Shown here one piece after another: positions 45,372-64,000 of a stretch of DNA of 64,000 nt. The number at the start of each line of letters is the position of its first letter. The first letter of the stretch is position 1. The stretch comes from Achromobacter deleyi. Its GTDB lineage: Bacteria > Pseudomonadota > Gammaproteobacteria > Burkholderiales > Burkholderiaceae_B. The notes under the pieces are model-generated. The model saw nothing but the letters and a program-made list of their open reading frames with translations, did no database searches and was not told where the DNA came from. The DNA lies in NCBI RefSeq assembly GCF_902859705.1, contig NZ_CADIJO010000007.1, forward strand, positions 124,001 through 188,000, written 5' to 3'. The translations under genes and the position numbers were made by a program.

Positions 45372-45376
45372 GCCTG

Positions 45377-48635: not shown

Positions 48636-48649
48636 GCCGGGCGCCCGGC
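48636..48649 (-). terminator. Palindromic hairpin directly after csaA
   Basis: GCCGGGC and GCCCGGC form a perfect 14-base palindrome adjoining the csaA stop codon. There is no T run and no loop, so it is a weak terminator candidate upstream of the riboswitch transcript. Confidence 0.35.
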
Positions 48650-49021: not shown

Positions 49022-49031
49022 GGCAGGAATT

Positions 49032-50693
49032 CTAAGCCAGGTCGATGCCGCCGCGCGTCACCGGCGCGGCCAGCAGGTCCTGCACGCCGACCACGGCGAT
49101 GCGCCCGTCTATCGTGCCGATCGCCAGGCGGTCGTCGCGGGCGTCCAGGGCGTAGATGACGGTGGCGGCGCCTGCCATGCGGACCTTGGCATCGAGCCGC
49201 ACGCCGCCTGTCAATGCGTCGATCAGCATCAGCCGGCCATCCAGGAATGCCGCGATCACCAGGCCGGCCGCGGCCAGGACAATGGTGGGCGACGCATGGG
49301 TGGCATGGCGCCATGCCAGCACGCCGCGCGCCAGGCTCTTGCGGTAGATGAAACCGCTGTATGTGTTGTCCACCGTGGGGCAATAGTGCTTGCCGGCGAT
49401 GATGACGCCCGGGCCTTGCTCGTCGTCGACATACGCGCCGCGGCATTCCATTGCGTGGCTGGCGTGCGTGCCGTCGGGTGGCAGCAGCGGCCACAGGCGT
49501 TCGATGCGGCCGTCCGGGTGGACGATGCACAGGTGCTTGCCTTCGTGCGAGCTGGGCGGCGTGCCCTGCACGGCGAACAGGTGGGGGGCGCCGTTGATGC
49601 CGAGGTAGTGGTTGAAGCAGTCGTAATGGCCGATGTTCAGGCGTTGTTCCGTCGTCAGCGTGGCATCGAGCTGCACGTCATGGGCGAGCGGACGCGTCGG
49701 GCCCATGCGGTCCTGGCGTCCCAGCACGCGGCCGTCGCTGGCAATGGAAAACGTGTATTGGCCGGCGTAGTCGCGCAGCGCGACCAGGGCATCGCCCTGC
49801 AGCGCATACAGACGGGAATCGCGGCGGAACCGGTCGCCGGGATCGGGCGGGGCGATGGCATGCACGGTGATCGAGGCGGCGCGCAGGATTTCCGCGCCAT
49901 GGCCACCGCCTTCGTGGCGGGCGATGAGGCGGCCGTCAGCAGCGTACAGATCCAGCAGGCAATCGTCGTGCGTGGCGACCAGCGTGTCGGCATCCCGCCA
50001 CGCCAGGTCCCAGATCGCGCCGCGCAAACCCAGGTCGGGCACGGTCAGCCAATCTGCCAGGCGACGGGCGGCATCGACGTCGGGCGTGACGGCGCCGCCG
50101 CTCGTGGCGCTGGCAGGGTCCAGCGTCAGCGTCGCGGGCGACCGCAAGTGCCACGCGGCCTCCGAATCGTCCACCTGGATGGGGAACAACGTGTCCAGCA
50201 CCTGGTTCCAGTCGCCGTCGGCGTCGTATTCCCGGTCGCCCCATTCTTCGTCCCACGGCCGGACCCACGCCACGACATGGCTGCCATCATCGCTGTAGCG
50301 GCAGCGCACCACTTCGGGCACGGCCACGTACGGGCGCCGGATTTTGCCGCTTTGCCAGTTCCAGAAGGCCAGGTCGCCTTCGAACAGATAGCCGCCGTCG
50401 TAGCTGCCCGCGCCGATCACGACGACGGGCTCGGTGGGGTGAAACGCCACGTCGTTGACCGGCAGGCGCAGCGCGTCGTACACCGCGAAGGGCGTCGTCT
50501 CGCCAAGCCGGTACAGGCCGACGCGATAGCGCAACGCGGCGCCGCCATAGGCAGCCCGCGCGCGCGGATTGGCCAGCAACGGAAATACCGAGGCCACCGC
50601 GGCAATGTCATTGGCAGGGCTGAAAAAGACGCCGGTGATCTTGCCTGCGCCGCGCAGGGCCGGGTTCATGAACGGGATCGGCATCGCGTCCAT
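49032..50693 (-). CDS. WD40-like beta-propeller protein of unknown function
   Basis: The 553-residue protein shows repeated blade-like segments ending in W, F or Y with GD/DG turns (PVVVIGAGSYDGGYLFEGDL, IWDLAWRDADTLVATHDDC, GRIAVVGVQDLLAAP). There is no signal peptide, so it is probably cytoplasmic. ATG 50693 is the likely start, 8 bases after the YiiX-like gene; the frame continues upstream without homology. It looks like a scaffold or sensor protein. No function can be assigned. It is followed by csaA. Confidence 0.75.
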   Translation of the reverse strand: MDAMPIPFMNPALRGAGKITGVFFSPANDIAAVASVFPLLANPRARAAYGGAALRYRVGLYRLGETTPFAVYDALRLPVNDVAFHPTEPVVVIGAGSYDGGYLFEGDLAFWNWQSGKIRRPYVAVPEVVRCRYSDDGSHVVAWVRPWDEEWGDREYDADGDWNQVLDTLFPIQVDDSEAAWHLRSPATLTLDPASATSGGAVTPDVDAARRLADWLTVPDLGLRGAIWDLAWRDADTLVATHDDCLLDLYAADGRLIARHEGGGHGAEILRAASITVHAIAPPDPGDRFRRDSRLYALQGDALVALRDYAGQYTFSIASDGRVLGRQDRMGPTRPLAHDVQLDATLTTEQRLNIGHYDCFNHYLGINGAPHLFAVQGTPPSSHEGKHLCIVHPDGRIERLWPLLPPDGTHASHAMECRGAYVDDEQGPGVIIAGKHYCPTVDNTYSGFIYRKSLARGVLAWRHATHASPTIVLAAAGLVIAAFLDGRLMLIDALTGGVRLDAKVRMAGAATVIYALDARDDRLAIGTIDGRIAVVGVQDLLAAPVTRGGIDLA

Positions 50694-50701
50694 GGCCGGA
50701 T

Positions 50702-51322
50702 TCAGGGCGAGCGCAGCAGCGGCGAATCGAACATCGCGGCGGGCGAGATGATCGGTTCTTCCCAGGGGATGGCGTCGCCGTAGCGTTCCCGCATCTTCGC
50801 GCGCACGGCGGGCGCGCTCAGGTCGAAGGTCTTGAGCGGCTGCAGTGCGCCGATTTCGACGCCGAGCGCGCGCTGGTAGATCTTCCAGACCAGTTCCGAG
50901 CAATAGATCCTGTCGTCCGACCAACCGAACGCCGCGTCATAAGGCTTGCCCGTATACGTGGCGCCGATGGCGGCCAGGCGGTCGCGCCGTTGCGGCGTCA
51001 GTTGCGTGTCATCGCGCAGGCGCTTGACCACATAGGCGCCGCGTTCGCCCTGTGCGGCCCAGGCCGCCAGCGGCGTGTAGCGCACCGTGGCCGCGGCTTC
51101 CAGCACATAGGGGCGGCCTTGCCGAAGCACGATCATGCCCATGTGGCTGTAGGGCGAATGCGTGGCCTGCTGCACCGCCAGGCTTTGCGCGGAACGAGAT
51201 TGCTGGAACACCAGGTCGCCCGTCTGGACGTCGGGGGCGGCAACGGCAGTCAGGGATGCAGCGCAGAGCGCGGCCGCGGCGGTACGGGCAAGCCAGCTGA
51301 TGGCGAAGGAGCGCATGGGCAT
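50702..51322 (-). CDS. YiiX-like permuted papain-fold cysteine hydrolase
   Basis: The 206-residue protein has a signal peptide ending at TAVAAPD. The YiiX/YebB NlpC-P60-like domain has GDLVFQQSRSAQSLAVQQAT, H60 in SPYSHMGMIV and the nucleophile C141 in RIYCSELVWKIY. Members of this permuted-papain group are thought to hydrolyse amide or thioester bonds in the envelope. The start is ATG 51322 or ATG 51316. It lies 22 bases after a small gene and 8 before the propeller gene, so the three form a probable operon with csaA. Confidence 0.88.
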   Translation of the reverse strand: MPMRSFAISWLARTAAAALCAASLTAVAAPDVQTGDLVFQQSRSAQSLAVQQATHSPYSHMGMIVLRQGRPYVLEAAATVRYTPLAAWAAQGERGAYVVKRLRDDTQLTPQRRDRLAAIGATYTGKPYDAAFGWSDDRIYCSELVWKIYQRALGVEIGALQPLKTFDLSAPAVRAKMRERYGDAIPWEEPIISPAAMFDSPLLRSP

Positions 51323-51344
51323 GTGGGCGGCGTTCAGCCGCGCA

Positions 51345-51506
51345 TCATGGCTTGGCCGCGGCGGTGGCGGTTTTCTTGCTGCGCGGTTTGGCCACGGGCG
51401 CTTTTTCAGCGACGGGCGCGTCGAACTCCTGTTTGTTGCGTTCGCCCCGCGGGGTGTTTTCCGGATGGGGCTTGGGAAAGGCCCAGGGCTTGGTCTTCTG
51501 ATCCAT
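51345..51506 (-). CDS. Small disordered basic protein (53 residues)
   Basis: The frame from ATG 51506 has an excellent AAGGAG site 8 bases upstream. The product is rich in Pro, Lys, Arg and Ala (MDQKTKPWAFPKPHPENTPR at the start, KPRSKKTATAAAKP at the end) with no helix-forming hydrophobic segment. It may be a nucleic-acid-associated or stress-type small protein. It precedes the YiiX-like gene. A longer frame exists, but its upstream part lacks a ribosome-binding site. Confidence 0.62.
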   Translation of the reverse strand: MDQKTKPWAFPKPHPENTPRGERNKQEFDAPVAEKAPVAKPRSKKTATAAAKP

Positions 51507-52011
51507 TGCTAGTACTCCTTGCACAGGCGGAACAGTAGCATTTGCCGCGGCCGTGGGTAAGTGAGGGTTGACGTCAATATTCATCACATCGTGATATGAG
51601 GAAACGGGGGTTCGCGGCGGCTGGCGGCGGGCCTTGAAAGGCGGCAGCAAGGTTGGCGCGGGCGCCGGCGGCAACGCCATCCGGCCAAACCGCCCCATGG
51701 CCGGCCATGCGGACCGGCTTTCTATGACCGCGGCGGTGGCGGCGGGTTCAATCGGCGGCGGCGCGCTGGGTGATTTCTTGCGCGAGACCGCAGCAGGCCG
51801 CGAGGCCGCGGCGCGCAATTCTACCTTGGCTGCGAAAGGCGATGCGTCCGATACTGGCGATGACACGTCTTGTCCTGCCGCGGCGCCTGATGCGTTTCCA
51901 CCCGGTAGCCATCCGAAAACCCGAGCATCTCATCCTTCCGCGTCACCGCTTGCATCAGCCGCACCCGCCTGGGCAGGACTACGATGGGGCCGTGCACATA
52001 GGGAGGAAACT
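51507..52011. other. Gene-poor stretch
   Basis: These 505 bases lie between two small genes and show only overlapping frames of skewed composition. I see no ribosome-binding site, recognised family, tRNA or terminator within them. The short AT-richer part near 51575-51610 (ATTCATCACATCGTGATATGAGG) includes a CATCACATCGTGATATG dyad and may carry the promoter of the minus-strand small gene. Confidence 0.5.
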
Positions 52012-52206
52012 ATGGACACGACCAAAGAGTGGTACGCCGCCGTCAAGGAATGGCAGCGCGCGCGGGACGAGCTCACCGCCGCCGTCGCCGCGATCAAGTG
52101 GCCCAATCCCACGCCGGGATGCCTGGACACCTACGACCGCGCCTACGAACAGGAAACGTCTGCGCGCGAGCGCATGAACCACGCCTACGAGCGCGTCCGA
52201 CGATAA
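52012..52206 (+). CDS. Small helical protein (64 residues), unknown function
   Basis: GGGAGGAAACT precedes ATG 52012, a near-perfect ribosome-binding site. The product begins MDTTKEWYAAVKEWQRARDE and ends ARERMNHAYERVRR, two charged amphipathic helices around a Pro-rich turn (KWPNPTPGC). I know no family for it. The same frame is open further upstream, but codon content there is not convincing. The GNAT gene follows after 30 bases. Confidence 0.6.
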   Translation: MDTTKEWYAAVKEWQRARDELTAAVAAIKWPNPTPGCLDTYDRAYEQETSARERMNHAYERVRR

Positions 52207-52236
52207 GCCCCGCGAGCAGTTGCTACACTGCCGCGC

Positions 52237-52737
52237 ATGACGCAACCCTCATCCCCCCTGACGATCCGGCCGGCGCGCGCAGCCGATGCCGCCGCCCTCG
52301 AGGACGTGCTGACGCGCACCTATGAAGGCACCTGGCAGCCGCAGATGACGCCGGAAAAATACCGGCATTTCCTCGACTCGGGCAAGATTCCGCAATACGT
52401 CGCCGAGCGCGGTGCGCGGTTCTACGTGTGCGAGGTCGACGGCCGCGTGGCGGGCATGGTCGACTGGGAAAAGAACTTCATCTGGGCGCTGCACGTGCAT
52501 CCGGACCTGCAACGGCGCGGCGTGGGCGCGGCGCTGCTGGCGCTGGCCGAAGACGGCATGCGCGCGGCCGGCTTCGCCGACGCCCGCCTGGAAACCGACA
52601 CGTTCAACACCCAGAGCCGCGCGTTCTACCGCAAGCACGGCTACGCTGAAATCGACACCTATCCCGACGAGGAATGGGACAGCGGTTTCACCACGGTGCT
52701 GCTGGTGAAGGCATTGGCCGGTATTGTGGCCCCATGA
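52237..52737 (+). CDS. GNAT-family N-acetyltransferase
   Basis: The 166-residue GNAT fold starts with LTIRPARAADAAALEDVL. The acetyl-CoA pyrophosphate loop appears as LQRRGVGAALLALAEDGM, and the final strand as NTQSRAFYRKHGYAEIDTYP. It transfers acetyl from acetyl-CoA to an amine; the acceptor is unknown. It lies upstream of a PaiB-like gene, and PaiA in Bacillus is also a GNAT encoded beside PaiB, so a PaiAB-like pair is possible. Confidence 0.9.
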   Translation: MTQPSSPLTIRPARAADAAALEDVLTRTYEGTWQPQMTPEKYRHFLDSGKIPQYVAERGARFYVCEVDGRVAGMVDWEKNFIWALHVHPDLQRRGVGAALLALAEDGMRAAGFADARLETDTFNTQSRAFYRKHGYAEIDTYPDEEWDSGFTTVLLVKALAGIVAP

Positions 52738-52818
52738 ATCGGGGGTTATATGGCTCTGGCTATGGAGCCAGGCTGGCGCTATCGTGTGTTTTTCCCCGAC
52801 ACGACGCCTATTGCCGCC

Positions 52819-53451
52819 ATGTACCTGCCGTCCGCTTTCCGTGAAGATTCGCTCGAGGTCCAGCACGATTTCATCCGCGCCCATCCGCTGGGCGTGCTGA
52901 CGACCAGCGGGGAGGGGGGGCTGATGGCCAACCACATTCCCTGTCTGCTCTACCCCGAAGGGCCGCACGGCGTGCTGCGCCTGCACATGGCGCGCGCCAA
53001 TGCGCAATGGAAGGAACTGGCCGCGGGGGCACAATGCCTGGTGGTGTTCCATGGCGCACAGGCCTACATCACGCCGTCCTGGTACGCCACCAAGGCCGAG
53101 ACGCACAAAGTCGTGCCCACCTGGAATTTCGTTGCCGTGCACGTCTGGGGCACGCCGGTGATCCACGACGATCCCACCTGGGTGCGCGCGCAGATCGGCG
53201 CGTTGACGGACGCCCAGGAAAAAGCCCGGGTGCAGCCCTGGCGGGTCGAAGATGCGCCCGAAGATTTCATCGCCGCGCAGATGCGCGCCATCGTCGGCGT
53301 CGAAATCGCCATCACGCGCATCGAAGGTAAATGGAAAGTCAGCCAGAACCGTACGCCCGCCGACCGCCAGGGTGTGGCCACGGGCCTGGCCGCCGAACAG
53401 GGCGATGCCGTCATGGCAGGCCTGGTGGCGCGCCGCGGCGGCCTGGACTGA
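52819..53451 (+). CDS. PaiB-family FMN-binding regulator
   Basis: The 210-residue protein begins MYLPSAFREDSLEVQHDFIR, the standard PaiB start. It continues GLMANHIPCLLYPE and HGAQAYITPSWYATKAETHK (FMN-binding split barrel), then VPTWNFVAVHVWGTP and the C-terminal WKVSQNRTPADRQGV motif. The start at ATG 52819 is preferred over 52750, which would add 23 atypical residues. PaiB represses sporulation and protease genes in Bacillus; in proteobacteria its role is unclear. It follows the GNAT gene. Confidence 0.92.
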   Translation: MYLPSAFREDSLEVQHDFIRAHPLGVLTTSGEGGLMANHIPCLLYPEGPHGVLRLHMARANAQWKELAAGAQCLVVFHGAQAYITPSWYATKAETHKVVPTWNFVAVHVWGTPVIHDDPTWVRAQIGALTDAQEKARVQPWRVEDAPEDFIAAQMRAIVGVEIAITRIEGKWKVSQNRTPADRQGVATGLAAEQGDAVMAGLVARRGGLD

Positions 53452-53521
53452 ATCGCCCGCAGCCGGGCTGGGGCTCGCTGAATCTGGCTCCGCCCGCGCC
53501 GGCTGCGTGATGCCATGGCGG

Positions 53522-54778
53522 TCAGGCCATGGCGGGCACGGGCCGCCGCGCCGACGCCCCGCAGCCCCACGCCAGGCAGGCGATCGCCGCGGCCTGCACG
53601 CAGGCCGCCAAGGCCAGGAACCAGAACATCGACGTGCCTGCGTCCTGTGAAGCCGACCGCAGCACGCCGAACGCGGCCGGCGCGAAGGCGTAGGCGCCTT
53701 GCGACAATGCCACGATCAGCGGCACCACCCGCAACGCATCTTCGCGCGCGAATTCCGTCTGGGCGATCAGCGGCGGCAGCGACGTCGCGTTGCCGATTCC
53801 CGCGCCGAACAGCATCACGCCCACCCATACCGCCCACATATGGTCGGCGGCCAGCATCAGCACCAGCGATCCCGCAATCTGCACGCCAAACGACACGCAA
53901 GCCACCTTGCGGCGATCTGCGGTGGGCGGCATCAACCAGCCGACCAGGCTGCGCCCGGCAATGGCGCTGGCGGTGGCCAGCCCCATCGCGATGCCTGCGG
54001 TCTGCGCGCCCAGCAGCGGCGCCAACAGCGACAGCAGGTGCGCGATCAGGCCGATCTGCGCGAACAGCCCCAGCGCCATGCCGGCGCCCAGCGTCAGGAA
54101 GGCGCGGTCGCGCCACAGCCGGGGCACGCGGGCCAGCGTGTTGACCGCCGCTTGCACGGGTGCGTCCGCCGCGGCGCCGTCAGGCAATTGTCCGAGCTGC
54201 TGCGGCGTGACGGAAAACACCTTGCGGGCCAGCACCGCGATCACCAGCACCATCGCCACGCCGACCCATAGCGCCGCCTGCGCAAAGCCGTAACCCGCGA
54301 TCAGGAATACCCACAGCGGTGAAAACACAATGCCGCCCACGCTGGCGCCGTTGTAGGCCATGCCCAGCGCGGCAGGGCGGCGCCGCACGAACCACGGCGC
54401 GATGAGGGCATTGACTGCCGCCGCGCCCAAGGTCACCCAGCCCATGCCCGACAGCAGGGCGGCTGCGTACAGCTGCCACGGCGCGTCCGCCCGCGCCCAG
54501 CCGGACACGCCCAGCGCCAGCGACACGGCGCCCGTCAGCGTCACCGTCGGCAGGCCCCAGCGCCGGTACAGCCGCGGCAGGTTGGCCACCACCACGGTGC
54601 CGCACAGAAAATGCAGCGTCACCGCGGCCGACACCAGCGCCACGCTCCAGCCGGTGCGCTGCACCACGGCATGCAGGAAGACAGGCGGCCCGTAAAAGCC
54701 CACGCCCCAGCCGAAGATGGCCAGCGTGAAGGTGGCATACAGGACGTTCCAACCGAAAAAACGCGGGGCGTTGCGCAT
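53522..54778 (-). CDS. Major facilitator superfamily transporter
   Basis: The 418-residue protein has 12 helices. N-terminal segments FFGWNVLYATFTLAIFGWGV and APWFVRRRPAALGMAYNGAS match MFS carriers of the YbfB/OFA type, and GRSLVGWLMPPTADRR is a conserved cytoplasmic loop. The start at ATG 54778 gives the normal short N terminus; the frame extends another 230 codons upstream without homology. It is divergent from an ArsR-like regulator 87 bases away that probably controls it. Confidence 0.88.
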   Translation of the reverse strand: MRNAPRFFGWNVLYATFTLAIFGWGVGFYGPPVFLHAVVQRTGWSVALVSAAVTLHFLCGTVVVANLPRLYRRWGLPTVTLTGAVSLALGVSGWARADAPWQLYAAALLSGMGWVTLGAAAVNALIAPWFVRRRPAALGMAYNGASVGGIVFSPLWVFLIAGYGFAQAALWVGVAMVLVIAVLARKVFSVTPQQLGQLPDGAAADAPVQAAVNTLARVPRLWRDRAFLTLGAGMALGLFAQIGLIAHLLSLLAPLLGAQTAGIAMGLATASAIAGRSLVGWLMPPTADRRKVACVSFGVQIAGSLVLMLAADHMWAVWVGVMLFGAGIGNATSLPPLIAQTEFAREDALRVVPLIVALSQGAYAFAPAAFGVLRSASQDAGTSMFWFLALAACVQAAAIACLAWGCGASARRPVPAMA

Positions 54779-54828
54779 GATGGGGGCCGGCGGCGCCGGC
54801 TGTCTTGTTGAGATGACTCGCAGTATGC

Positions 54829-54844
54829 TTGTCCCTGTACACAA
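54829..54844. promoter_or_regulatory. Possible operator between the MFS and ArsR-like genes
   Basis: TTGT-N8-ACAA is a short dyad in the 87-base divergent region, 21 bases before the regulator start codon. The arms are short, so this is only a candidate. Confidence 0.3.
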
Positions 54845-54865
54845 CACTTTGGTCTGGGCCGAATT

Positions 54866-55609
54866 ATGGAATCCAAGTTCGCCGACATCAATCTCTCGGC
54901 CGTTGCCGGCGCCATCGCCGATCCTGCCCGCGCGCGCATGCTGTGCGTGCTGCTGGACGGCCGCGCGCGCACCGCCACCGAACTGGCCGCCGCCGCCGAC
55001 ATCGGCGCGTCCACCGCCAGCAGCCATTTCCAGCGGCTGCGCGAACAGGGGTTGGTCGACCTGGCGGTGCAGGGCAAGCATCGCTATTACCGCCTGGCCA
55101 ATGCAGAAGTGGGCGAGGCGCTTGAAGCGTTGCTGGTCGTGGCGGGCGCCGAACGCACGCCCTTCAAGCCCAACACGCCGTCGGCGCTGCGCGATGCGCG
55201 CACTTGCTACGACCACATGGCGGGCACGTTGGCCGTGCGCATCCACGATGCGATGCTGGCGCGCCAATGGCTGGCCGCCGACGGCCGCGACTACACGCTG
55301 ACGCCGCTGGGCGAGGCCTCGCTGGCGCAAGTGGGCGTGGACGTGGTCACGGCCCGGCAGCGCCGCCGCCGTTTCGCCTGCCCCTGCCTGGACTGGAGCG
55401 AGCGTCGCTCGCACCTGGGCGGCGCGCTGGGCGCCGCCCTGCTGCAGGCGCTGCTGCAACGCGGCTGGGTCGACAAGGACCTGGACTCGCGCGCTCTGTC
55501 GGTCACGCGCAAGGGCGCGCGCCAGTTCCCCGCGTTCTTCGGCATGCCGGAACCTGCGTCCGGGGACATGGCCGATTGGGCGCGTCCGGGCAATCCGGCG
55601 GCAGCCTAG
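54866..55609 (+). CDS. ArsR-type winged-helix regulator with extra C-terminal domain
   Basis: The 247-residue protein has an ArsR-like N terminus (ALADPARARMLCVLLDGRAR-like start, TELAAAADIGASTASSHFQR, LREQGLVDLAVQGKHRYYRL). A C-terminal part of about 150 residues has a second helical region and the cysteines in RRFACPCLDWSERRSHLGG, matching COG0640/helix-turn-helix proteins of this larger type. It is divergent from the MFS gene and probably represses it until an inducer binds. Confidence 0.88.
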   Translation: MESKFADINLSAVAGAIADPARARMLCVLLDGRARTATELAAAADIGASTASSHFQRLREQGLVDLAVQGKHRYYRLANAEVGEALEALLVVAGAERTPFKPNTPSALRDARTCYDHMAGTLAVRIHDAMLARQWLAADGRDYTLTPLGEASLAQVGVDVVTARQRRRRFACPCLDWSERRSHLGGALGAALLQALLQRGWVDKDLDSRALSVTRKGARQFPAFFGMPEPASGDMADWARPGNPAAA

Positions 55610-55625
55610 GACACATCAACACCTT

Positions 55626-55647
55626 GCCGCCCGCGTCTGCGGGCGGC
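55626..55647 (+). terminator. Hairpin after the ArsR-like gene
   Basis: A perfect 9-bp stem (GCCGCCCGC/GCGGGCGGC) with a 4-base loop lies 17 bases after the stop codon, and TTTTT follows 13 bases further. It is a likely transcript end before the next gene. Confidence 0.6.
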
Positions 55648-55695
55648 ACAAACACGGGTTTTTCATCGGGCATTTGCCCTGTACAGGAGGTGGCC

Positions 55696-56322
55696 TTGCT
55701 TACGCTGGCCCTGCACGCTTTTCCTCGCGCCTTGCCTGTCGCGACGGAACTGCGCATCGACGTCAACCATGCCCCGCAAGAGGTGGACAAGGAACTCGAT
55801 GCCATCTACGACCGCATGAATCGTCCTTCGGATCGCTTGCACGGATTGCAGGAGGTCCGTACCGACATCCCTGGCCTTGTGCTTCGCCATCGCGAAGCCG
55901 ATGGCGAGTACTACGTGTACGTGGTGGACGTGCGGCGCGGCCGGCTGGCGGGCTATACGGTGTTCAACCGCTTGATCGAAGTGGGGCGGCGCGCCGACCC
56001 CTATGTGCGCGCCCCGCACTCGAAGTACGCGGCGCCCTACCAGGGCATGGGGTTGGCCACCGCCGTCTATCGCTGGGGGCTGGATGCGGGCCTGTGCATC
56101 ATGAGCGGCGCGCGCCAGTCGCCCGCCGCGCACCGTCTGTGGCTGGGCCTGGCCCGTGACTATGAGCTGGGCTACGCCGACCTGCGGCGCAAGCGCCTGG
56201 GCTATCTGGGCCGAACGGTGGCGCCCACGGTGCTGGCCGATCTGCATACCCGCATGTTCCTGTTGGGGCGGGGCTGGACGTTGCCCGACTATCTGGCTGC
56301 GACGGGCATGAACGCCGTTTGA
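55696..56322 (+). CDS. GNAT-like protein of unknown function
   Basis: Starting at TTG 55696, with AGGAGG 5 bases upstream, the product has 208 residues. Segments YYVYVVDVRRGRLAGYTVFN, SKYAAPYQGMGLATAVYRWG (acetyl-CoA loop-like) and ARQSPAAHRLWLGLARDYEL (last helix and strand) resemble a GNAT fold. I cannot name a subfamily. Its position after the ArsR gene suggests an independent transcript, as a hairpin lies between. The GTG at 55690 is too close to the ribosome-binding site. Confidence 0.6.
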   Translation: MLTLALHAFPRALPVATELRIDVNHAPQEVDKELDAIYDRMNRPSDRLHGLQEVRTDIPGLVLRHREADGEYYVYVVDVRRGRLAGYTVFNRLIEVGRRADPYVRAPHSKYAAPYQGMGLATAVYRWGLDAGLCIMSGARQSPAAHRLWLGLARDYELGYADLRRKRLGYLGRTVAPTVLADLHTRMFLLGRGWTLPDYLAATGMNAV

Positions 56323-56637
56323 TTGCCTCGCTAGAGTCCTCGAAATCGGTCCGAAATCGCCCGGAAACGCGGTGAATAGTGCACTTTCGCAACAGCTTTA
56401 GGGAAATCCCCGGGACGGATCAGCCCGGCGGCCATCGGCCGCCGGCTTCATCTGGCTGTCAGCCGCGCCCCGCTTGCAGATCGGCGCCGCGGGTCGGTCT
56501 CGGGGCCTGCGCCACAGAAACGGGGACGCAACTTCTGCAATGCAACAATGTTTCCAGTAGATGCCCGGGTTACAAAACATATCCGAACTGTCATGAACAG
56601 CCGGGGTATGCTGGCTCGCAGAAAGAGGGCATCCGAA
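56323..56637. other. Gene-free gap with a strong hairpin
   Basis: These 315 bases hold no supported gene. A perfect 9-bp hairpin CCGGCGGCC-ATC-GGCCGCCGG (56425-56445) lies 103 bases after the GNAT-like stop and may end its transcript. The AT-richer part around 56545-56600 (TTACAAAACATATCC) is a likely promoter zone for the small gene that follows. Confidence 0.5.
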
Positions 56638-56910
56638 GTGCATCAGAACAACTTGATCTACAAGGGATACCGGCTGACGGCCAAAGTGTCCCGGGGCGCT
56701 GGCGCTGAGGTTCAAGCGTTGCCCAGCGGCCCTGTCTTCATCGCATCGGTCATGGTGGTCCAGGCGGGCGCGGTCCGCGAAGGCGGCGACGAATACCCCG
56801 TGCCACGGTTCGCCGAAGGCGGTTTTGTCTTCAGTCCGCGCGAAGCGGTGCATGCCGCCATCCTGCACGGCCGCGAGATCGTCGACGGCCTGACCAACAT
56901 GCCAGCCTGA
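56638..56910 (+). CDS. Small DUF6566-like protein
   Basis: GTG 56638, with AGAGGG 8 bases upstream, gives 90 residues (VHQNNLIYKGYRLTAKVSRG, then FSPREAVHAAILHGREIVDG). The layout, a short beta-rich part followed by a helix with an EGR/HGREIVDG end, resembles small DUF6566-type proteins of betaproteobacteria. A longer start at 56548 lacks support. Function is unknown. Confidence 0.6.
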   Translation: MHQNNLIYKGYRLTAKVSRGAGAEVQALPSGPVFIASVMVVQAGAVREGGDEYPVPRFAEGGFVFSPREAVHAAILHGREIVDGLTNMPA

Positions 56911-56927
56911 GCATTGCCAGCCTGAGC
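56901..56927 (+). repeat. 12-bp direct repeat across a stop codon
   Basis: GCCAGCCTGAGC occurs at 56901-56912 and again at 56916-56927. The first copy contains the TGA stop of the small gene. The second is part of a 7-bp hairpin AGCCTGA-GCG-TCAGGCT (56919-56935) that may act as a transcript end. Confidence 0.6.
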
Positions 56928-56997
56928 GTCAGGCTGAAATCCGGGTCTGCATCGCCGCCGGGCTGCTTGGCGCCGGCAGCGGTCTTGCGTCGTCCGC

Positions 56998-57762
56998 CTA
57001 GTCGGCGAACACGGCCTGCCAGTCGCGCGTCTTGGCCAGAGTCTGCACGGTGGCCGACTGTTCCAGGATGGTCACGGCCTTCTTGAATTCCTCGGCCGAC
57101 GCGCCGTCTTCCAGAATCACCATGCGCGAGTTGCGCGCATCCGCCATTTTCACGTCCGACATCTTGCCGTGGGTCTGGTAGACCTGCGTCCAGTCCATTT
57201 TCTTGCCGGCCTTCAGCGCGATCGGCTCGATGTACGTCAACGCCGTGCTGCCTGCCGCGCGCACCGCAAAGGCGAAGTCGGCGGTATGCCCGCTGCTGCC
57301 CTTGGCGCGCGCACCCTTGACCATGCGGTTCACGCCCACGCCCGCCGCCAAGGCGCGGCCGACCTGCGCGCGAAAACGCAGCTGGCTGAAGCGGGGCATC
57401 CACTTGGCGCACTGGAACGACAGGGCCATCGCCAGCTTCACCGCATCCCACAACGCTTCCTGCAGCTGTTCGTTGGGGCCCGAGGCCACGATGGCGCCCG
57501 ACTTGTCGAAATGCGCCAGGCTCACGCCCGGCGTCTCGTTCAGGATGTCGATGCGCTTGGCGGCCAGCTCGATGCCGTAGCTGGATGCGTGCATCGCGGT
57601 CTCACAGGCATCGGTGAGATAGAACGTGGCATCGTCCGGATGCGCGATGAAGAACGCGGCGTGCTGGCCGTCCAGGCCGAGCGTCATCGGCGAGATGGCA
57701 CGGATGGCATGCTCGCCCGCCGGCAGGACGGTCCAGCCGGAGGCTTCCAGGAAATTGCTCAT
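56998..57762 (-). CDS. DUF1828/DUF1829-type protein
   Basis: The 254-residue protein begins NFLEASGWTVLPAGEHAIR. It has the FYLTDACETAMHASSYGIEL and SLAHFDKSGAIVASGPNEQL segments that fit DUF1828. The C-terminal half (GHTADFAFAV, TYIEPIALKAGKKMDWTQVY) fits DUF1829. Proteins of this type are found in phages and accessory regions, and no function is established. It starts inside the stop of the upstream gene (ATGA), so the pair is translationally coupled. The family call is by eye. Confidence 0.65.
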   Translation of the reverse strand: MSNFLEASGWTVLPAGEHAIRAISPMTLGLDGQHAAFFIAHPDDATFYLTDACETAMHASSYGIELAAKRIDILNETPGVSLAHFDKSGAIVASGPNEQLQEALWDAVKLAMALSFQCAKWMPRFSQLRFRAQVGRALAAGVGVNRMVKGARAKGSSGHTADFAFAVRAAGSTALTYIEPIALKAGKKMDWTQVYQTHGKMSDVKMADARNSRMVILEDGASAEEFKKAVTILEQSATVQTLAKTRDWQAVFAD

Positions 57763-58295
57763 AGGATCAGTTCGATTTGTCGGCCTTTGAGGGGATGCGC
57801 GAATCCGCCGGTCAGGGTCAGGTTGGCCCGGGGCAGGAAATACTGCATCAACTCGCCGATCGTGTGCAGGGCGGGAACGATGGGCTCGGCATAGCCTTCG
57901 CCTTCGTTCACCCAGATATGTTCATGGCTGCGGTCCGCCAGCGGCTTGCGGTAGTGCGGCCGGCCTTCGCCCACCAGGCTGGTGTGGAACGAGTCGTCCG
58001 TGTCCACGCCGAACACGCGGTGCGGGCCCACGAAGAGGCTGGCACAGAATGCTTCGGTCAGGAAGATGGTGGCCTGGCCGTGCACCACCGTGCGGGCGCC
58101 GCGATAGGTGGCGCGAAAGATCACGTCGTCGCGCACTTCGCCCTTGATGCGGCAGGGGCTGGCAAATTCCATCCATTGGATGCTGCCGCCGCCCGGCTTG
58201 GGCACCCAGGTGATCTGCTTGATGGTTTCCTTGGGCTCGGCAAGGATCTCTTGCACCTCATCAACGGTGATTAGCGGTTCGAACTTGTTGGCCAT
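57759..58295 (-). CDS. DUF6978-like protein, partner of the DUF1828 gene
   Basis: The 178-residue protein opens FEPLITVDEVQEILAEPKET. It has a beta-rich core (ASPCRIKGEVRDDVIFRATY, YRGARTVVHGQATIFLTEAF) and a His-rich segment HEHIWVNEGEGYAEPIVPAL before IGELMQYFLPRANL. The order of features resembles DUF6978-type proteins that occur next to DUF1828 genes; this is a tentative match. The downstream gene overlaps it by 4 bases. No promoter is certain in the 275-base gap before it. Confidence 0.55.
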   Translation of the reverse strand: MANKFEPLITVDEVQEILAEPKETIKQITWVPKPGGGSIQWMEFASPCRIKGEVRDDVIFRATYRGARTVVHGQATIFLTEAFCASLFVGPHRVFGVDTDDSFHTSLVGEGRPHYRKPLADRSHEHIWVNEGEGYAEPIVPALHTIGELMQYFLPRANLTLTGGFAHPLKGRQIELIL

Positions 58296-58433
58296 GGAAA
58301 CGGATCTAGTGTCTGGAAATGCGTCGCGCGGTTCGCGTCGCCGCGTGGTAGTGGCGGACGCGCGGCAGCGCGAGGGGGGGCGGTTTTTTCCCGGTCAGGC
58401 TGTCTGCAGTCGATAAAGCGTCCGGCCCAATGG

Positions 58434-58455
58434 GAAAAGCCCCCTTTCGGGAGCT
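58434..58455 (-). terminator. Rho-independent terminator of the YpfJ-like gene
   Basis: On the minus strand, AGCTCCC-GAAA-GGGGGCT forms a 7-bp stem (one G-T pair) with a GAAA loop, followed by TTTTCCC. A second hairpin, CCGCGCAG/CTGCGCGG, lies just before it at 58459-58480. Both are downstream of the metallopeptidase gene and upstream of the DUF pair. Confidence 0.6.
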
Positions 58456-58570
58456 GGTCCGCGCAGCGGGAACTGCGCGGGGCGTAATCTTACAAGATGA
58501 AGACGGTGCCGGTCTTGCGGCTGTATGGATATACAGGCAAAAAACGGCGCCTTGGCAGGGCAACGTCCGG

Positions 58571-59422
58571 CTACAGCGAACTGGCGGCGAAGGTATCGCA
58601 CTGCTTCAGGCTGCCGCTGTCCAGGCCGCGCTTGAACCAACGCACCCGCTGGGCCGACGAGCCGTGTGTGAAGGCGTCCGGCACCACATAGCCCTGGCTC
58701 TGCTTTTGCAGCCGGTCGTCGCCGATGGCGGTGGCCGCGGCCAGCGCTTCTTCGACGTCGCCGCCTTCCAGGATGTTGCGCGCCGCGTTGGCGCGCTGCG
58801 CCCACAGCCCCGCAAAGCAATCGGCCTGCAGCTCCAGCCGGACCGACAGGGCGTTGGCCTGCGACGGATTGCGGCGGCGCAGGTTGTCGACCTGGTCCGA
58901 GATGCCCAGCAGATGCTGCACGTGATGGCCGACCTCGTGGGCAATCACGTAGGCCTGCGCGAAGTCGCCGGGCGCCTTGAAGCGATTCTGCAATTCGTCG
59001 AAGAACGCCAGGTCGATATAGACCTTGCTGTCGGCCGGGCAGTAGAACGGGCCCATCGCCGCCTGCCCCGTGCCGCAGGCGGTCGGCGTGGCGCCGCGAA
59101 ACAGCACCAGCTTGGGGGCCACGTACTGGCGGTTCAGATCTTTCTGAAAGATGGCGCTCCAGGTGTCTTCGGTTTCGCCCAGCACCTTGGACACGAACCG
59201 GGCTTGCGGGTCGTTGGCGGGCGGCTTGGTGGCGGGCGCCTGCTGCTGCGTCGGCGGGCCTTCGGCCATCTGCAGCACCACGTTGGGGTCGACGCCGAAA
59301 TACATGGCCACCAGGGCCAGCACGATGGTGCCGATGCCGATGGTGCCGCGTCCGCCGATGCGCGGGCCGCTGGCGCGGCGGTCTTCCACATTGTCGCTTT
59401 CGCGGGAATCATCAAGGCGCAT
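58571..59422 (-). CDS. YpfJ-family neutral zinc metallopeptidase
   Basis: The 283-residue protein has an N-terminal membrane helix (about 27-44) after a charged start. The catalytic domain has QAYVIAHEVGHHVQHLLG with the HEVGHH zinc motif at 162-167 and the third ligand region LQADCFAGLWAQ. SKVYIDLAFFDELQNRF is typical of the family. The enzyme is anchored in the inner membrane with its domain outside. Its substrate is unknown. A GGAG site precedes ATG 59422. Confidence 0.93.
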   Translation of the reverse strand: MRLDDSRESDNVEDRRASGPRIGGRGTIGIGTIVLALVAMYFGVDPNVVLQMAEGPPTQQQAPATKPPANDPQARFVSKVLGETEDTWSAIFQKDLNRQYVAPKLVLFRGATPTACGTGQAAMGPFYCPADSKVYIDLAFFDELQNRFKAPGDFAQAYVIAHEVGHHVQHLLGISDQVDNLRRRNPSQANALSVRLELQADCFAGLWAQRANAARNILEGGDVEEALAAATAIGDDRLQKQSQGYVVPDAFTHGSSAQRVRWFKRGLDSGSLKQCDTFAASSL

Positions 59423-59510
59423 ACTGTGTCTCCGGGCGGGCCGGCTGGGCCGCCATGTGTTGCATCGCCGCCGTTGGCAGGGCGGCCTTCAAGAGTGTTA
59501 GGATAATCCC

Positions 59511-60137
59511 ATGGCCCTTCATTTAGATATCCACCCCGCGAATCCCCAACCGCGCCTGCTCAAGCAGGCCGCCCAATGGCTGAACGACGGGGGCCTGGTG
59601 GCGGTGCCCACCGACTCCAGCTATGCGGTGGTCGCGCGCCTGGACGACAAGAACGCCGCCGACGGCCTGCGCCGCCTGCGTGGCCTGGACGAACGCCATC
59701 ACCTCACGCTGCTGTGCCGCGACCTGGCTGAAATCGGCCATTTCGCCCGCGTCGACAACCGCCAGTACCGCCTGCTCAAGGTCGCCACGCCCGGCCCCTG
59801 GACCTTCATCCTCGAAGCCACCAAGGAAGTGCCGCGCCGCGTGTCGCATCCGTCGCGCAAGACCATCGGCATCCGCGTGCCCGATCACGCCGTCATGCTG
59901 GGGCTGCTCGAACAGGTGGGGGCGCCGCTCCTGTCCACCACGCTCATCCCCAAGGACGAGACCGAAGCGCTGAACGACGCCGAAGCCATCCGCGAACGCT
60001 ACGACCACCAACTGGCCGCCATCATCGATGCCGGCGCCTGCCCGCATTCGCCCACCACCGTCATCGACCTCACCAGCGAAGAGCCGGTCGTGGTGCGCGT
60101 GGGCCGCGGCGATCCGGCCACGCTGGGCCTGGCCTGA
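59511..60137 (+). CDS. YciO/YrdC/Sua5-family protein
   Basis: The 208-residue protein has the YrdC fold: GGLVAVPTDSSYAVVARLDD, RLRGLDERHHLTLLCRDL, RLLKVATPGPWTFILEATKE and RRVSHPSRKTIGIRVPDHAV. It resembles the YciO branch more than TsaC. TsaC/Sua5 makes threonylcarbamoyl-AMP for tRNA t6A; YciO has a related but weaker activity. An AGGA site precedes ATG 59511. The site-2-protease-like gene follows after 109 bases. Confidence 0.9.
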   Translation: MALHLDIHPANPQPRLLKQAAQWLNDGGLVAVPTDSSYAVVARLDDKNAADGLRRLRGLDERHHLTLLCRDLAEIGHFARVDNRQYRLLKVATPGPWTFILEATKEVPRRVSHPSRKTIGIRVPDHAVMLGLLEQVGAPLLSTTLIPKDETEALNDAEAIRERYDHQLAAIIDAGACPHSPTTVIDLTSEEPVVVRVGRGDPATLGLA

Positions 60138-60246
60138 ATCCGCCTGTCATGCTTCATCGCCGGGCGCACAGGCGTCCGGCGCGCACGCTGCGATGTGCCC
60201 GATGCGGTGCATATCGTCATGCGGCTCCTCTACAATCCGGTTCGCC

Positions 60247-60894
60247 ATGAACGACTTCATCCAAACCATCGCGGTCTACGCGATACCGGTCATCTTTGCC
60301 ATCACGCTGCACGAGGCTGCCCACGGCTATGTCGCGCGCATGCTGGGCGACCCCACCGCCTATCAGGCCGGCCGCGTCAGCCTGAACCCGGCACGCCACA
60401 TCGATCCCATCGGCACGTTGCTGGTGCCGGCCGTGATCCTGCTGATGTCCAAGCTCATGGGCGGTTCGGCCATGCTGTTCGGCTGGGCCAAGCCCGTGCC
60501 GGTGGATTTCGGCCGCCTGCGCCGGCCCAAGAAAGACATGCTGTGGGTGGCGCTGGCCGGCCCGGCCGCCAACCTGCTCATGGCCATCCTGTGGGTGTTT
60601 TCGCTGCGCCTGTTCCTGGAATCGGGCATGCAGGAAACCTTCTGGTACGAAATGGCCATGGCCGGCGTCCAGGTCAACCTGGTGCTGATGGCCCTGAACC
60701 TGCTGCCCATCCCGCCGCTCGATGGGGGACGCATCGTTTTCAGCCTGCTGCCCAACCGGCTGGCCTGGCAGTACTCGAAAATCGAGCCGTATGGCCTGGT
60801 CATCGTGATCGTCCTGCTGGTCACCGATGTGCTCTGGATATTGATGCGTCCGATCCTGGCGTTAGGAACGACAATCGTTCAGTGGTTTCTGTAG
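60247..60894 (+). CDS. Site-2 protease-like M50 metallopeptidase
   Basis: The 215-residue membrane protein has the zinc motif in ITLHEAAHGYVAR (H22-E23-x-x-H26). The second ligand region is IPPLDGGRIVFSLLP, and it has about five helices. This short form without PDZ domain is common in bacteria and sits upstream of other conserved genes, here yciO-like and dapA. It cuts membrane proteins within the bilayer; no substrate is known. The frame is open upstream, but ATG 60247 starts the conserved part. Confidence 0.92.
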   Translation: MNDFIQTIAVYAIPVIFAITLHEAAHGYVARMLGDPTAYQAGRVSLNPARHIDPIGTLLVPAVILLMSKLMGGSAMLFGWAKPVPVDFGRLRRPKKDMLWVALAGPAANLLMAILWVFSLRLFLESGMQETFWYEMAMAGVQVNLVLMALNLLPIPPLDGGRIVFSLLPNRLAWQYSKIEPYGLVIVIVLLVTDVLWILMRPILALGTTIVQWFL

Positions 60895-60981
60895 GAATTC
60901 GGCCAATATCCGTTAAACTCAGCGGTTTCATTGATTCTGGCCCTGAGGCATCCCGCCATGGGGCGTTGGAGCCCTTCATTT

Positions 60982-61887
60982 ATGGCATCCCCTGCAACCG
61001 CCGCAGGCGTTAATTTCCAGGGCAGCATGGTGGCCCTCGTCACCCCGATGCAGCCCGATGGCAGCCTTGACTACGCTGCCTACCGGTCGTTGATCGACTG
61101 GCACATCCAGGAAGGCACCGACGCGCTCGTGGTGGTGGGCACCACCGGGGAGTCGCCGACGGTTTCCATGGAAGAACACGCGGAACTCATCCGCGTGGCG
61201 GTTGAACATGCCGCCGGCCGCATCCCGGTCATTGCCGGCGTGGGCGCCAACTCCACCGACGAAGCCATCCACCTGACCCGTCACGCCAAGGCGGTGGGCG
61301 CGCAGGCCGGCCTGTCCGTGGTTCCGTACTACAACAAGCCCTCGCAAGAAGGCCTGTACCGCCACTTCCGCACCATCGCGGAAGCGGTGGACCTGCCCAC
61401 CATCCTGTACAACGTGCCGGGCCGCACCGTTGCCGACATGAGCAACGAAACGGTTCTGCGCCTGGCTCAGGTGCCGGGCATCATCGGCATCAAGGACGCC
61501 ACCGGGGACATCGCCCGCGGCGGCCTGCTGCTGCGCGAAGCGCCTGCCAGCTTCCAGGTCTTCAGCGGCGATGATCCCACCGCCGCCGCCCTGATCCTGC
61601 TGGGCGCTCGCGGCAATATCTCCGTTACCGCCAACGTCGCGCCCAAGCTCATGCGCGATCTGTGCGCGGCCGCGCTCGCGGGCAATGTGCCCAAGGTGCG
61701 TGAACTAAATGCGCATTTGGCTCGTCTGAACAAGGCTTTGTTCGTTGAAGCCAATCCTATCCCCGTCAAGTGGGCGTTGGCCGAAATGGGCCGCACCGCA
61801 CTGGGCTACCGGCTTCCGCTGGTTGAACTGGGGGCGCAGCACCATGAATCGGTGCGTCGTGTGCTCCAGGAAACGGGTCTGCTCTAA
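60982..61887 (+). CDS. dapA: 4-hydroxy-tetrahydrodipicolinate synthase DapA
   Basis: The 301-residue enzyme has GTTGESPT (53-60), Y143 in LYNVPGRT, the Schiff-base lysine K171 in [11 protein letters not shown] and [16 protein letters not shown]. It condenses pyruvate and aspartate semialdehyde, the first step to diaminopimelate and lysine in the cytoplasm. ATG 60982 gives a short N terminus; the longer frame at 60931 is unneeded. It is followed by bamC after 17 bases, the arrangement also seen in E. coli. Confidence 0.97.
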
Positions 61888-61904
61888 ATATCGTGAGGAT
61901 ACGT

Positions 61905-63029
61905 ATGAACAAGCGTCATGCCGGTCTGTCGGCATTGATGTCTCTGGTGTTGTTGGCCGGCTGCAGCGAGGTCAACCAATTCCTGGGCAATGAAGAATCC
62001 GTCAACTACAAGAGCGCCGTCACTCAGCGTGGAGAGCCTTTGAGCATTCCGCCTGACCTGACCCAGGCCGCCAGCGATCCGCGCTACCGCGCGCCCGCTT
62101 CCGGCTCGACGACGTACTCGCAGTTCCAGCAACAGGGCCAGGCGCAAGCCAGCAGCCCCAAGGCCAGCAACGTGCTGCCCGGCCGCCAGGACATGCGCGT
62201 CGAGCGCGACGGCGATCTGCGTTGGCTGGTCGTCGACCGTGCCCCCGAAGACGTCTTCCCGCGCCTGGTCGATTTCTGGACCGAAAACGGCTTTACCGTC
62301 GCCAGCAACAACCCGGCTGCCGGCCTGATCGAAACCGACTGGGCGGAAAACCGCGCCAAGATCCCGGAAAGCTGGCTGCGCCAGGCCCTGGGCGCGGTGC
62401 TGGAATCGGCCTGGGATAGCGGCGAGCGCGAGAAATTCCGCACCCGCGTCGAACGCGTCAACGGCCACACCGAAGTCTACGTCAGCCACCGCCAGATGCT
62501 CGAAAAGCGCGTCGGCGGCGACGGTTCGCAAGTGCAGTGGCAGAACGGCAAGGAAGACCCGGGCCTGAACGCCGCCATGCTGGCGCGCATGATGGTCTAC
62601 CTGGGCTCCGACGTCGACAACGCCCGCAAGCTGGTGCAGCAGGCCGAAGCCGCGCCGCAAAAGCCGGCGGTGCAACAAGACGTCCGCGCCCAGGGCGCGC
62701 TGCTGATCGTCAACGAATCGTTCGACCGCGCATGGCGTCGTGTCGGCGTGGCGCTGGACGGCGGCGGCTTCGCTGTGGACGATCGCGACCGTTCGGCCGG
62801 CGACTACTTCGTGCGCTACTTCGACACCGACACTGGCGAGAAGATCGACCAGCCGGGCTTCTTCAGCCGCATGTTCTCGGGCGACAAGAAGGCCGAAGCG
62901 CCGCAGTACCGCATCCACCTGACCGCCAGCGGCGACCAGACCAACGTGACGGTGCTCGATGCCAAGGGCGAACGCGACAGCAGCGCCACTGCCCAGCGTC
63001 TCTTGAGCGTGCTGAAAGACAAGATGTGA
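61905..63029 (+). CDS. bamC: Outer membrane lipoprotein BamC
   Basis: The 374-residue protein has a lipoprotein signal peptide with lipobox LLAGCS (C20). The unstructured segment that binds BamD follows (ESVNYKSAVTQRGEPLSIPP, with DLTQAASDPRY). Two helix-grip domains are linked by a loop near AAPQKPAVQQD. It is a subunit of the BAM outer-membrane-protein assembly machine. GTGAGGATACGT just before ATG 61905 supplies the ribosome-binding site. It is co-transcribed with dapA, and a strong terminator follows. Confidence 0.95.
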   Translation: MNKRHAGLSALMSLVLLAGCSEVNQFLGNEESVNYKSAVTQRGEPLSIPPDLTQAASDPRYRAPASGSTTYSQFQQQGQAQASSPKASNVLPGRQDMRVERDGDLRWLVVDRAPEDVFPRLVDFWTENGFTVASNNPAAGLIETDWAENRAKIPESWLRQALGAVLESAWDSGEREKFRTRVERVNGHTEVYVSHRQMLEKRVGGDGSQVQWQNGKEDPGLNAAMLARMMVYLGSDVDNARKLVQQAEAAPQKPAVQQDVRAQGALLIVNESFDRAWRRVGVALDGGGFAVDDRDRSAGDYFVRYFDTDTGEKIDQPGFFSRMFSGDKKAEAPQYRIHLTASGDQTNVTVLDAKGERDSSATAQRLLSVLKDKM

Positions 63030-63112
63030 TGCCGACCGCGGGCGCTGATGCAGCGCCTGCGCGGTTCAAAGGCCCCTGTGGGGGCCTTGAACCTCAGACT
63101 CAGTCTTGCAAG

Positions 63113-63140
63113 ATCCACCCCGACGGGGTGGATTTTTTTT
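63113..63140 (+). terminator. Rho-independent terminator of dapA-bamC
   Basis: A 9-bp stem ATCCACCCC/GGGGTGGAT with a GAC loop is followed by eight T. A second, T-less hairpin (AAGGCCCC/GGGGCCTT) lies nearer the bamC stop at about 63069-63088. Confidence 0.9.
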
Positions 63141-63155
63141 GGCTTGTGCGGCCGC

Positions 63156-64000
63156 TCAGTGCCTTGCCGATGGCTCGGTATCGGCCGAGGGCGTGTGATA
63201 GATGGCGCGGCCCGTCTCACGCAGCGCTTCCAACACCCGTTCCGTGGCAGGCGTGGCCAGCCGGTCGGTCGGGGTGATGATGCCGAAGTCGTCCATGTGG
63301 CAGGGCAGGTCCAGCGGCAGGGTCTCGAGCATGCCGTAGCGGGCGTAGTGCTGGGCAACGTCCAGCGTCAGCACGGCCACCATGTCGGACTGCACCAGCA
63401 TGCGCGTCAGGAACAGGGGCGCGGCGGTTTCCACCACCTTGTCCGGCGGCGGCAGGCTGGCGCGGCGGAACATCAATTCGAATCGATGGCGCAGCACGCT
63501 GCCCGCAGGCGGGATCAGCCACGTCCACGCGGTGGCCTGCTCCAGTGTCAGGCCCATTGCGCCGGCCAGGGGATGGCCCACCCGCACCGCCGCACAGACG
63601 GGTTCTTCGGCCAGCGGCTCATAGCGCAGCTGCGTCTTGTCGTGCTCGGGCGAGAGTCGGCCGACCACGATGTCCAGCTTCTCGTGCGCAAGGCACTCCA
63701 GCAGGACATTGCTGCTGTCGATTTCCACCGATATCCGCAGGCCCGGACTGCGTTGCATGGCCAGCGCGACAGCGGGCGGCAGCAGGCGCACACCGGGCGA
63801 GGTGATGGCGCCGACGGCGACGCTGCCCATTTGTCCGGTTTTCAGCGCCTGCACTTCGGTATGGGCCTGTTCCAGGCTGCCGATCGCTGCCCGGGCGTGG
63901 CGGATCATGGCCTGGCCATAGAGCGTGGGTTCGATGCCGCGCGCCAGTCGCAGAAAGAGCGGCGCATCGAGCAGGTCTTCCAGTTCGCGCAGCAGCTTGG
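63156..64000 (-). CDS. LysR-family regulator, cut by the window edge
   Basis: The frame runs to base 64000, so the N terminus is missing. The part seen begins KLLRELEDLLDAPLFLRLAR, the end of the LysR helix-turn-helix (LE-x-x-L-x-x-x-LF-x-R), then the linker and effector domain (GSVAVGAITSPGVRLLPPAV, LDIVVGRLSPEHDKTQLRYE, DMVAVLTLDVAQHYARYGML). The last residues are ADTEPSARH. It lies convergent to bamC. Its target is outside the window. Confidence 0.9.
   Translation of the reverse strand, partial: KLLRELEDLLDAPLFLRLARGIEPTLYGQAMIRHARAAIGSLEQAHTEVQALKTGQMGSVAVGAITSPGVRLLPPAVALAMQRSPGLRISVEIDSSNVLLECLAHEKLDIVVGRLSPEHDKTQLRYEPLAEEPVCAAVRVGHPLAGAMGLTLEQATAWTWLIPPAGSVLRHRFELMFRRASLPPPDKVVETAAPLFLTRMLVQSDMVAVLTLDVAQHYARYGMLETLPLDLPCHMDDFGIITPTDRLATPATERVLEALRETGRAIYHTPSADTEPSARH

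Follow-up and report, generated by a model that had tools for sequence, protein, structure and literature searches.

What do two overlapping genes encoding a DUF6978-like protein and a DUF1828 protein do on the chromosome of an Achromobacter, and how did they come to be there? The genes lie on the minus strand of the window (the whole 64,000-nucleotide stretch of DNA analysed here, part of a 6.8-Mb genome), and a sequence-only reading had described them as a translationally coupled, possibly phage-borne module of two proteins bounded by terminators. That observation is largely right. Both genes are minus-strand open reading frames, and the overlap it had claimed is present, the stop codon of the upstream gene (A) and the start codon of the downstream gene (B) having an ATGA in common (Table 1).

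Table 1. Features of the A-B locus, in coordinates of the window.
Feature	Coordinates	Strand	Remarks
Gene A	57759..58295	-	178 aa; remote DUF6978 relative by sequence profile; candidate effector
Gene B	56998..57762	-	254 aa; DUF1828 protein
Codons 93-126 of A	57918..58019	-	R93, D98, H104, H124-x-H126 signature; putative active site
N-terminal half of B (residues 1-124)	57391..57762	-	DUF1828; modelled fold resembles type III secretion chaperones
C-terminal half of B (residues 125-254)	57001..57390	-	modelled PD-(D/E)XK nuclease fold, catalytic residues not conserved; place of DUF1829 in relatives
ATGA overlap (stop of A, start of B)	57759..57762	-	
Terminator-like hairpin followed by UUUU	58438..58455	-	between the ypfJ-like gene and A
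8-bp hairpin without a U run	56918..56936	-	3' of B, between convergent genes
ypfJ-like metallopeptidase gene	58571..59422	-	one border of the insertion site; adjoins A in 41/41 loci
120-aa gene	56548..56910	+	convergent with B; opposite border of the insertion site

A gene pair at a fixed chromosomal site

A and B behave as real genes, since their dN/dS values are low and their spacing of -4 (an overlap of four bases) is kept in 42 of the 47 loci that have both genes, a few of these loci being one genome counted twice. Purifying selection acts on both in Achromobacter, where 26 copies (325 pairs) give median dN/dS values of 0.130 (A) and 0.066 (B). The terminators that had been claimed on both sides of the pair stand for the upstream side and not for the downstream one. 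The hairpin 5' of A has a GAAA loop followed by four U residues, and the folded 61-nt stretch that holds it together with a second hairpin has a z of -2.8. The hairpin 3' of B has a perfect stem, and its stability is not above that of shuffled sequences (z of -0.5 on the minus and -1.2 on the plus strand). A consensus terminator scan listed neither of the flanking hairpins and returned three matches, with 2.6 expected from shuffles.

The nearest named relatives of the host carry a B that is 97-98% identical, and all are Achromobacter. In a sample of 150 genomes, counting the host's own, B occurs in 46 and A in the identical 46, and the two genes are neighbours by coordinates in every one (46/46). 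Within the genus Achromobacter, both genes are present in 42 of 43 genomes, the host again included, and the sole genome without the pair is an assembly that is 57% complete. One gene order surrounds all 41 Achromobacter and Bordetella loci (some representing one genome twice), which we take to be dapA, an M50 peptidase gene, a Sua5/yciO-like gene, the ypfJ-like gene, A, B and the small convergent gene; the ypfJ-like name of the metallopeptidase gene is likewise our assumption. This small 120-aa gene is kept at the site in both genera, with or without the pair.

Bordetella is more varied. Among 15 genomes, B is whole in eight and in two pieces in one, three have ypfJ without B, and three have neither. 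In the three that keep ypfJ (G392, G393 and G402), the ypfJ-like gene directly adjoins the small gene and both A and B are missing, so the pair is a discrete cassette at one site, which is empty in these genomes. In another (G395, locus L200), A is full-length and B is split in its C-terminal half, at about residue 188. The accessory or phage-borne status suggested for the pair must be given up for the copy in the window, which is a domesticated core pair of the genus and not an accessory element.

Relatives in prophages, viral contigs and restriction loci

The closest relatives found outside the Achromobacter/Bordetella clade are in prophages. In three such regions, whose phage-type genes were judged by eye, A is preceded on its own strand by a repressor-like gene, at a distance of about 1.96 kb (G144), 20 bp (G055) and 0.68 kb (Massilia aurea). 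Coliphage ev207 has the order LexA-family repressor, gp49 (A), gp48 (B), N-like gene; a prophage of E. coli FDAARGOS_772 has the order repressor, A, B; and one gene separates repressor and A in Acinetobacter phage Acba_11 and Pseudomonas phage phPA-G. The A relative of phPA-G (L002:3456-3974), which overlaps B by an ATGA, is missing from the deposited annotation. Among the 5426 complete E. coli genomes, 237 carry the coliphage pair with at least 80% of the query covered, at 270 places that are all chromosomal.

Six scans of viral contigs, one of them without result, yielded 82 loci, one of which (L167) has no full B. In the remaining 81, distributed over 79 contigs, A is always directly upstream of B. 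To score repressors, we used phmmer matches at E 1e-3 to seven repressors (four annotated, three judged by eye), which can pick up other HTH genes too, as at L095 and L097; by this measure, 77 of the 79 viral contigs, an uneven sample with 48 contigs in a single 50% cluster, carry a CI-like repressor upstream of A and on its strand, at a distance of no more than 1500 bp, against 44 of 301 other open reading frames of at least 150 aa from the same loci, which were picked greedily by length and some of which may not be genes. At E 1e-5, the count is 71 of 79. The two contigs without a match have no sequence upstream of A (L185) or 1172 bases that match nothing (L189). Clustering of the viral set gives 17 groups of B (90% identity) and 29 of repressors (60%), so that the pair accompanies many different repressors.

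In lambda, rexAB lies 3' of cI. The viral relatives are likewise placed 3' of a repressor on the same strand. The window copy is not: a repressor search over positions 45001-64000, the 19 kb round the pair, gave no match.

These scans reach only fairly close relatives, as the first distant alignments were insufficiently conserved and a closer set (A3) was used instead. With the window proteins as tblastn queries, searches at E 0.1 detected A in neither phages nor plasmids, and B was not detected in plasmids at E 0.001; the A relatives of phages were identified by reading the open reading frame that precedes B. Pairs of the DUF6978/DUF1828 type are carried by an Acetobacter plasmid (L107:3989-5208) and by the IncP plasmid pRSB223 (L108:3986-5187).

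The wider family is sparse. DUF1828 occurs in 10 of 249 Pseudomonadota genomes, the host's own counted in, and DUF6978 is rare there (3/249 genomes; two score over the cut-off, and an in-frame stop interrupts one of the two). Closeness to defence genes, which had been raised as a possibility for the pair, is seen in this wider family: five of nine DUF1828 loci are within or at most 3 kb from BREX, type I or type IIG restriction genes, as judged from ten neighbouring proteins that were picked by eye before being sent to PADLOC. One further locus belongs to a prophage and follows a repressor at about 1.1 kb, and three (L098-L100) were counted as having no defence gene on inspection by eye alone. 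A BREX operon (L093:8932-9964) contains a whole B between BrxC and PglX and a broken A. A type I restriction operon (L094:8863-10067) contains a full DUF6978 plus DUF1828/DUF1829 pair with an ATGA overlap, flanked by HsdS (assigned by eye) and a type I restriction gene; the L094 protein had no relative in a viral scan. Type IIG enzymes are near B relatives at L096 (ATGA overlap), L097 (0.16 kb) and L095 (2.8 kb). The repressor search of the nine regions matched the prophage region and, weakly, L095 and L097, whose short HTH genes look HigA-like by eye. At L095, a retron/DRT-like reverse-transcriptase gene (8215-8973) lies about 400 bp after the B relative. The conserved two-gene module that had been proposed is thus borne out in chromosomes, in viral loci and, as a full overlapping pair, at L094.

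The origin of the chromosomal copies was assessed by building a FastTree phylogeny from 33 B proteins, with the three that are linked to DUF6978 as the root. All eight representatives from chromosomes fall into a single clade (support 0.996), whose neighbours are copies carried by viral contigs (L039-L041) and by the G144 and Massilia prophages. The single clade and the empty sites fit one capture from a prophage with later loss or absence in some Bordetella; the pair appears to have been captured once and then kept as chromosomal genes by Achromobacter and some Bordetella.

Candidate roles of the two proteins

In Pfam, A has no match at E up to 10, DUF6978 and TumE included. Neither A nor B matches NCBIfam, any PADLOC family at E up to 10, or the sequence of a solved structure at E up to 1. 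The DUF6978-like character that the sequence-only reading had given to A is therefore not detected by the Pfam HMM (PF22398, cut-off 29.6 bits), and it is upheld by relatives that score below this cut-off (L034, 24.8 bits; coliphage gp49, 22.0 bits) and by profile comparison. Against a set of true DUF6978 proteins, the A profile scores 34.6, a value reached by none of 150 shuffles (maximum 21.7), with an hhalign probability of 65.5%; an earlier comparison with a mixed DUF6978-like set gave only 40.5%. Judged by these profiles, A is a remote DUF6978 relative that belongs to a diverged branch.

Conservation in A was scored in 36 proteins, non-redundant at 90%. K22, H104, H126 and F153 are present in all 36, R93, H124 and N158 in 35, and D98 in 33. 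The AlphaFold2 model of A (pLDDT 88.4, pTM 0.83) is built from one helix, about 11 strands and a further helix at the C-terminus. A Foldseek search with it gave no match at E 0.001: the best E was 0.38 in the PDB and 0.068 for viral models. A second look with VIA-align gave Z of at most 4.3; the absence of structural matches is evidence neither for a new fold nor for a function.

The motif noticed in A led us to pick TumE (DUF6516, PF20126) for comparison. The A profile scores 23.9 against TumE, which 1 of 300 shuffles reaches, with an hhalign probability of 10.1%; the match spans residues 82-159 of A, which hold an R..D..H-x-H..helix stretch. A and DUF6978 combined score 24.3 (0/300 shuffles). 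With the DUF6978 set alone, 79 of 150 shuffles were equally good, and with the type IIG-neighbourhood set alone, 29 of 150. In Pfam, where the TumE cut-off is 23.4 bits, A has no TumE match. The likeness of A to TumE is suggestive only, a lead and not proof.

B had been read as DUF1828 followed by DUF1829. The first assignment barely survives: DUF1828 (PF08861) is the sole Pfam match of B, at 22.4 bits for a cut-off of 22. In PHROGs, residues 6-248 match phrog_1960, whose function is not assigned (E 7.6e-25), and hhalign aligns the B set with the wider DUF1828 set at 97.3% probability, over residues 15-174 only. The second assignment finds no HMM match in B itself, where DUF1829 (PF08862, cut-off 22.2 bits) is not seen at E up to 10. 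Among relatives, L094 matches DUF1829 at 110.1 bits. The likeness of the C-terminal half of B to DUF1829 is drawn from its position and from another relative, L050, which reaches 20.5 bits, just below the cut-off. Searches of B against Pfam, NCBIfam, PHROGs and PADLOC recognised no DNA-binding antitoxin domain.

The model of B (pLDDT 89.4, pTM 0.57) has two distinct halves. VIA-align matched residues 1-124 to 8q8o_B (Z 9.7, 113 aligned residues, rmsd 3.2), 3cxj_A (Z 9.4) and type III secretion chaperones (Z about 7.5-8.5, with 3epu_A, 1xkp_C and 2bsj_B at 8.3-8.5). Residues 119-254 were matched to BstEII (Z 10.8, 130 aligned residues, rmsd 3.4) and to many other PD-(D/E)XK nucleases at Z 7-9.5, a range whose lower part (Z 7-8) is common for unmatched models. 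Foldseek found none at E 0.001, the best being Can2/Card1 at about 0.012. The matches are modest and consistent, and the C-terminal half is predicted to adopt a PD-(D/E)XK nuclease fold.

The corresponding active site, a D plus (D/E)-x-K, is not conserved among 33 B proteins: at the expected positions, which were taken from the secondary structure of the model and not from superposition, D162 is present in 8, E179 in 10 and K181 in none. Other residues are kept throughout (D203, D51 and P25 invariant) or nearly so (K200 in 29, K205 in 27). In eight wider DUF1828 proteins, two Asp residues of the nuclease-like half are invariant (D138 and D167 of L094), so part of the nuclease site may survive in the wider family. 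Taken together, A looks like the enzyme of the pair and B like its binding partner, the latter being less certain.

Function of the pair

We infer, with middling confidence, that A and B are a module from a prophage immunity region, captured once and domesticated, whose two proteins work together in phage exclusion or in the manner of a toxin-antitoxin, most likely limiting infection by other phages, with A the likely effector and B its partner; its exclusion activity, the toxicity of A and the restraint of A by B are all part of that inference. The unit would stem from the immunity region of a temperate phage, where it would be placed like lysogeny cargo downstream of the repressor gene, and one copy would have been caught at the ypfJ site in an ancestor of Achromobacter and part of Bordetella and kept since. 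In lysogens, the pair would be expressed together with the repressor. B, as a non-catalytic partner, would keep A quiet through its chaperone-like DUF1828 half, and its nuclease-fold half might sense infection or a nucleic-acid signal and free A. The freed A, perhaps an RNase or a translation inhibitor to judge from its conserved Arg, Asp and three His residues, would then block RNA or translation and stop the infecting phage.

Several known systems have comparable features. RexAB, of lambda and of Pseudomonas putida prophage P1, likewise consists of two prophage genes for exclusion; for prophage P1, RexA is described as DNA-binding and RexB as the growth-suppressing effector (PMC12894663). 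RexB differs in being a membrane protein, and no Rex family matched A or B in Pfam, NCBIfam, PHROGs or PADLOC. DS-6/HipAD is a tested anti-phage system made of a HipA-like kinase and a DUF3037-DUF1829 protein, and is proposed to act as a toxin-antitoxin (PMC13092281). Like our pair, it is a two-gene unit; its partner protein contains DUF1829, and this occurrence of DUF1829 argues for a partner role of such domains; it differs in having a kinase as effector in place of a DUF6978-like protein, and B itself has no DUF1829 match. The pairs of DUF6978 with DUF1828/DUF1829 are similar in gene order and, at L094, in the ATGA overlap, and differ in that A and the C-terminal half of B in the window fall below Pfam detection. 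The portions of the literature on DUF1828, DUF1829 and DUF6978 covered here give no function for such a pair, and a literature search combining Achromobacter, phage defence systems and core genome returned a single match, which concerns Klebsiella phages.

A bolder version of the exclusion model, which we find possible and yet lean against, is that the module moves between the repressor-adjacent cargo slot of phages and BREX or restriction operons, which it may guard. A would then represent a new TumE-like, His-rich effector family restrained by a chaperone-like and dead-nuclease protein, domesticated once as a core immunity pair in Achromobacter and Bordetella.

The position of the viral pairs also suggests another role, namely that the pair tunes the lysogeny switch, through the CI repressor or SOS induction, and that the chromosomal copy regulates something on the host side. 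This would suit the viral contigs, nearly all of which have a repressor-like gene immediately before the pair on its strand, as well as the bias of the lysis/lysogeny switch reported for lambda RexA (PMC11077077). Such tuning is unlikely in our view, because relatives are also found in or near BREX, type I and type IIG operons, where the repressor search gave only the two weak, HigA-like matches, because the 19 kb round the window pair have no repressor match, and because the pair accompanies 29 different repressor clusters.

Slightly less probable still is a classical type II toxin-antitoxin pair that serves plasmid- or prophage-style stability without an anti-phage role. The two genes overlap and, as expected of such a pair, are found together in all 46 genomes and all 81 viral loci. 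TumE-TumA pairs, too, are two overlapping genes with the effector candidate first, toxin-first with a 4-base overlap in seven of eight plasmid records (the eighth has no annotated TumE gene), and the R..DN..H-x-H stretch and helix region of TumE line up with residues 82-159 of A in the weak profile match described above. TumE, a tested toxin, halts the growth of E. coli and lowers translation, methionine incorporation being reduced (PMC10584680). The ten TumE proteins used are, by contrast, 93-126 aa long against the 178 aa of A, which has no TumE match in Pfam, and the comparison of B with TumA-type partners gives no clear match (profile score 15.2). Against a stability pair speak the lack of a recognised DNA-binding antitoxin domain in B, the placement beside repressors and restriction genes, which points to exclusion, and the Bordetella copy with a whole A and a broken B. 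The last is unexpected under any strict toxin-antitoxin model; it fits a DUF1828 half that alone suffices for restraint, an A that is non-toxic alone, or a sequencing error.

We consider it improbable that B is an active nuclease on foreign DNA with an unusual active site and A its regulator or specificity factor: the modelled fold with its similarity to BstEII, the conserved D203, K200 and K205, and the two invariant Asp residues of the wider DUF1828 proteins would agree with this, and the loss of the usual catalytic positions in B, set beside the sharply conserved Arg/Asp/His set of A, argues against it. Recruitment of the chromosomal pair to a housekeeping function unrelated to phages, which its core status at a fixed site and its low dN/dS would also suit, is the least probable account, given that the pair is cleanly absent from three Bordetella genomes, and so dispensable there, and that its main conserved residues are identical in prophage copies.

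Given its frequency in E. coli genomes, the coliphage pair can be put to the test in laboratory strains of that species. If the exclusion model, in which A is the effector and B its partner, is true, DUF6978, DUF1828 and DUF1829, which have no described job in this setting, would acquire a common one, and further exclusion cargo, besides RexAB, would be known from the slot that follows the repressor in many temperate phages. The Achromobacter pair would then be a plain example from nature of a prophage module that became fixed among the core genes of its host, for which the empty sites and the one partly broken copy in Bordetella offer natural test material.
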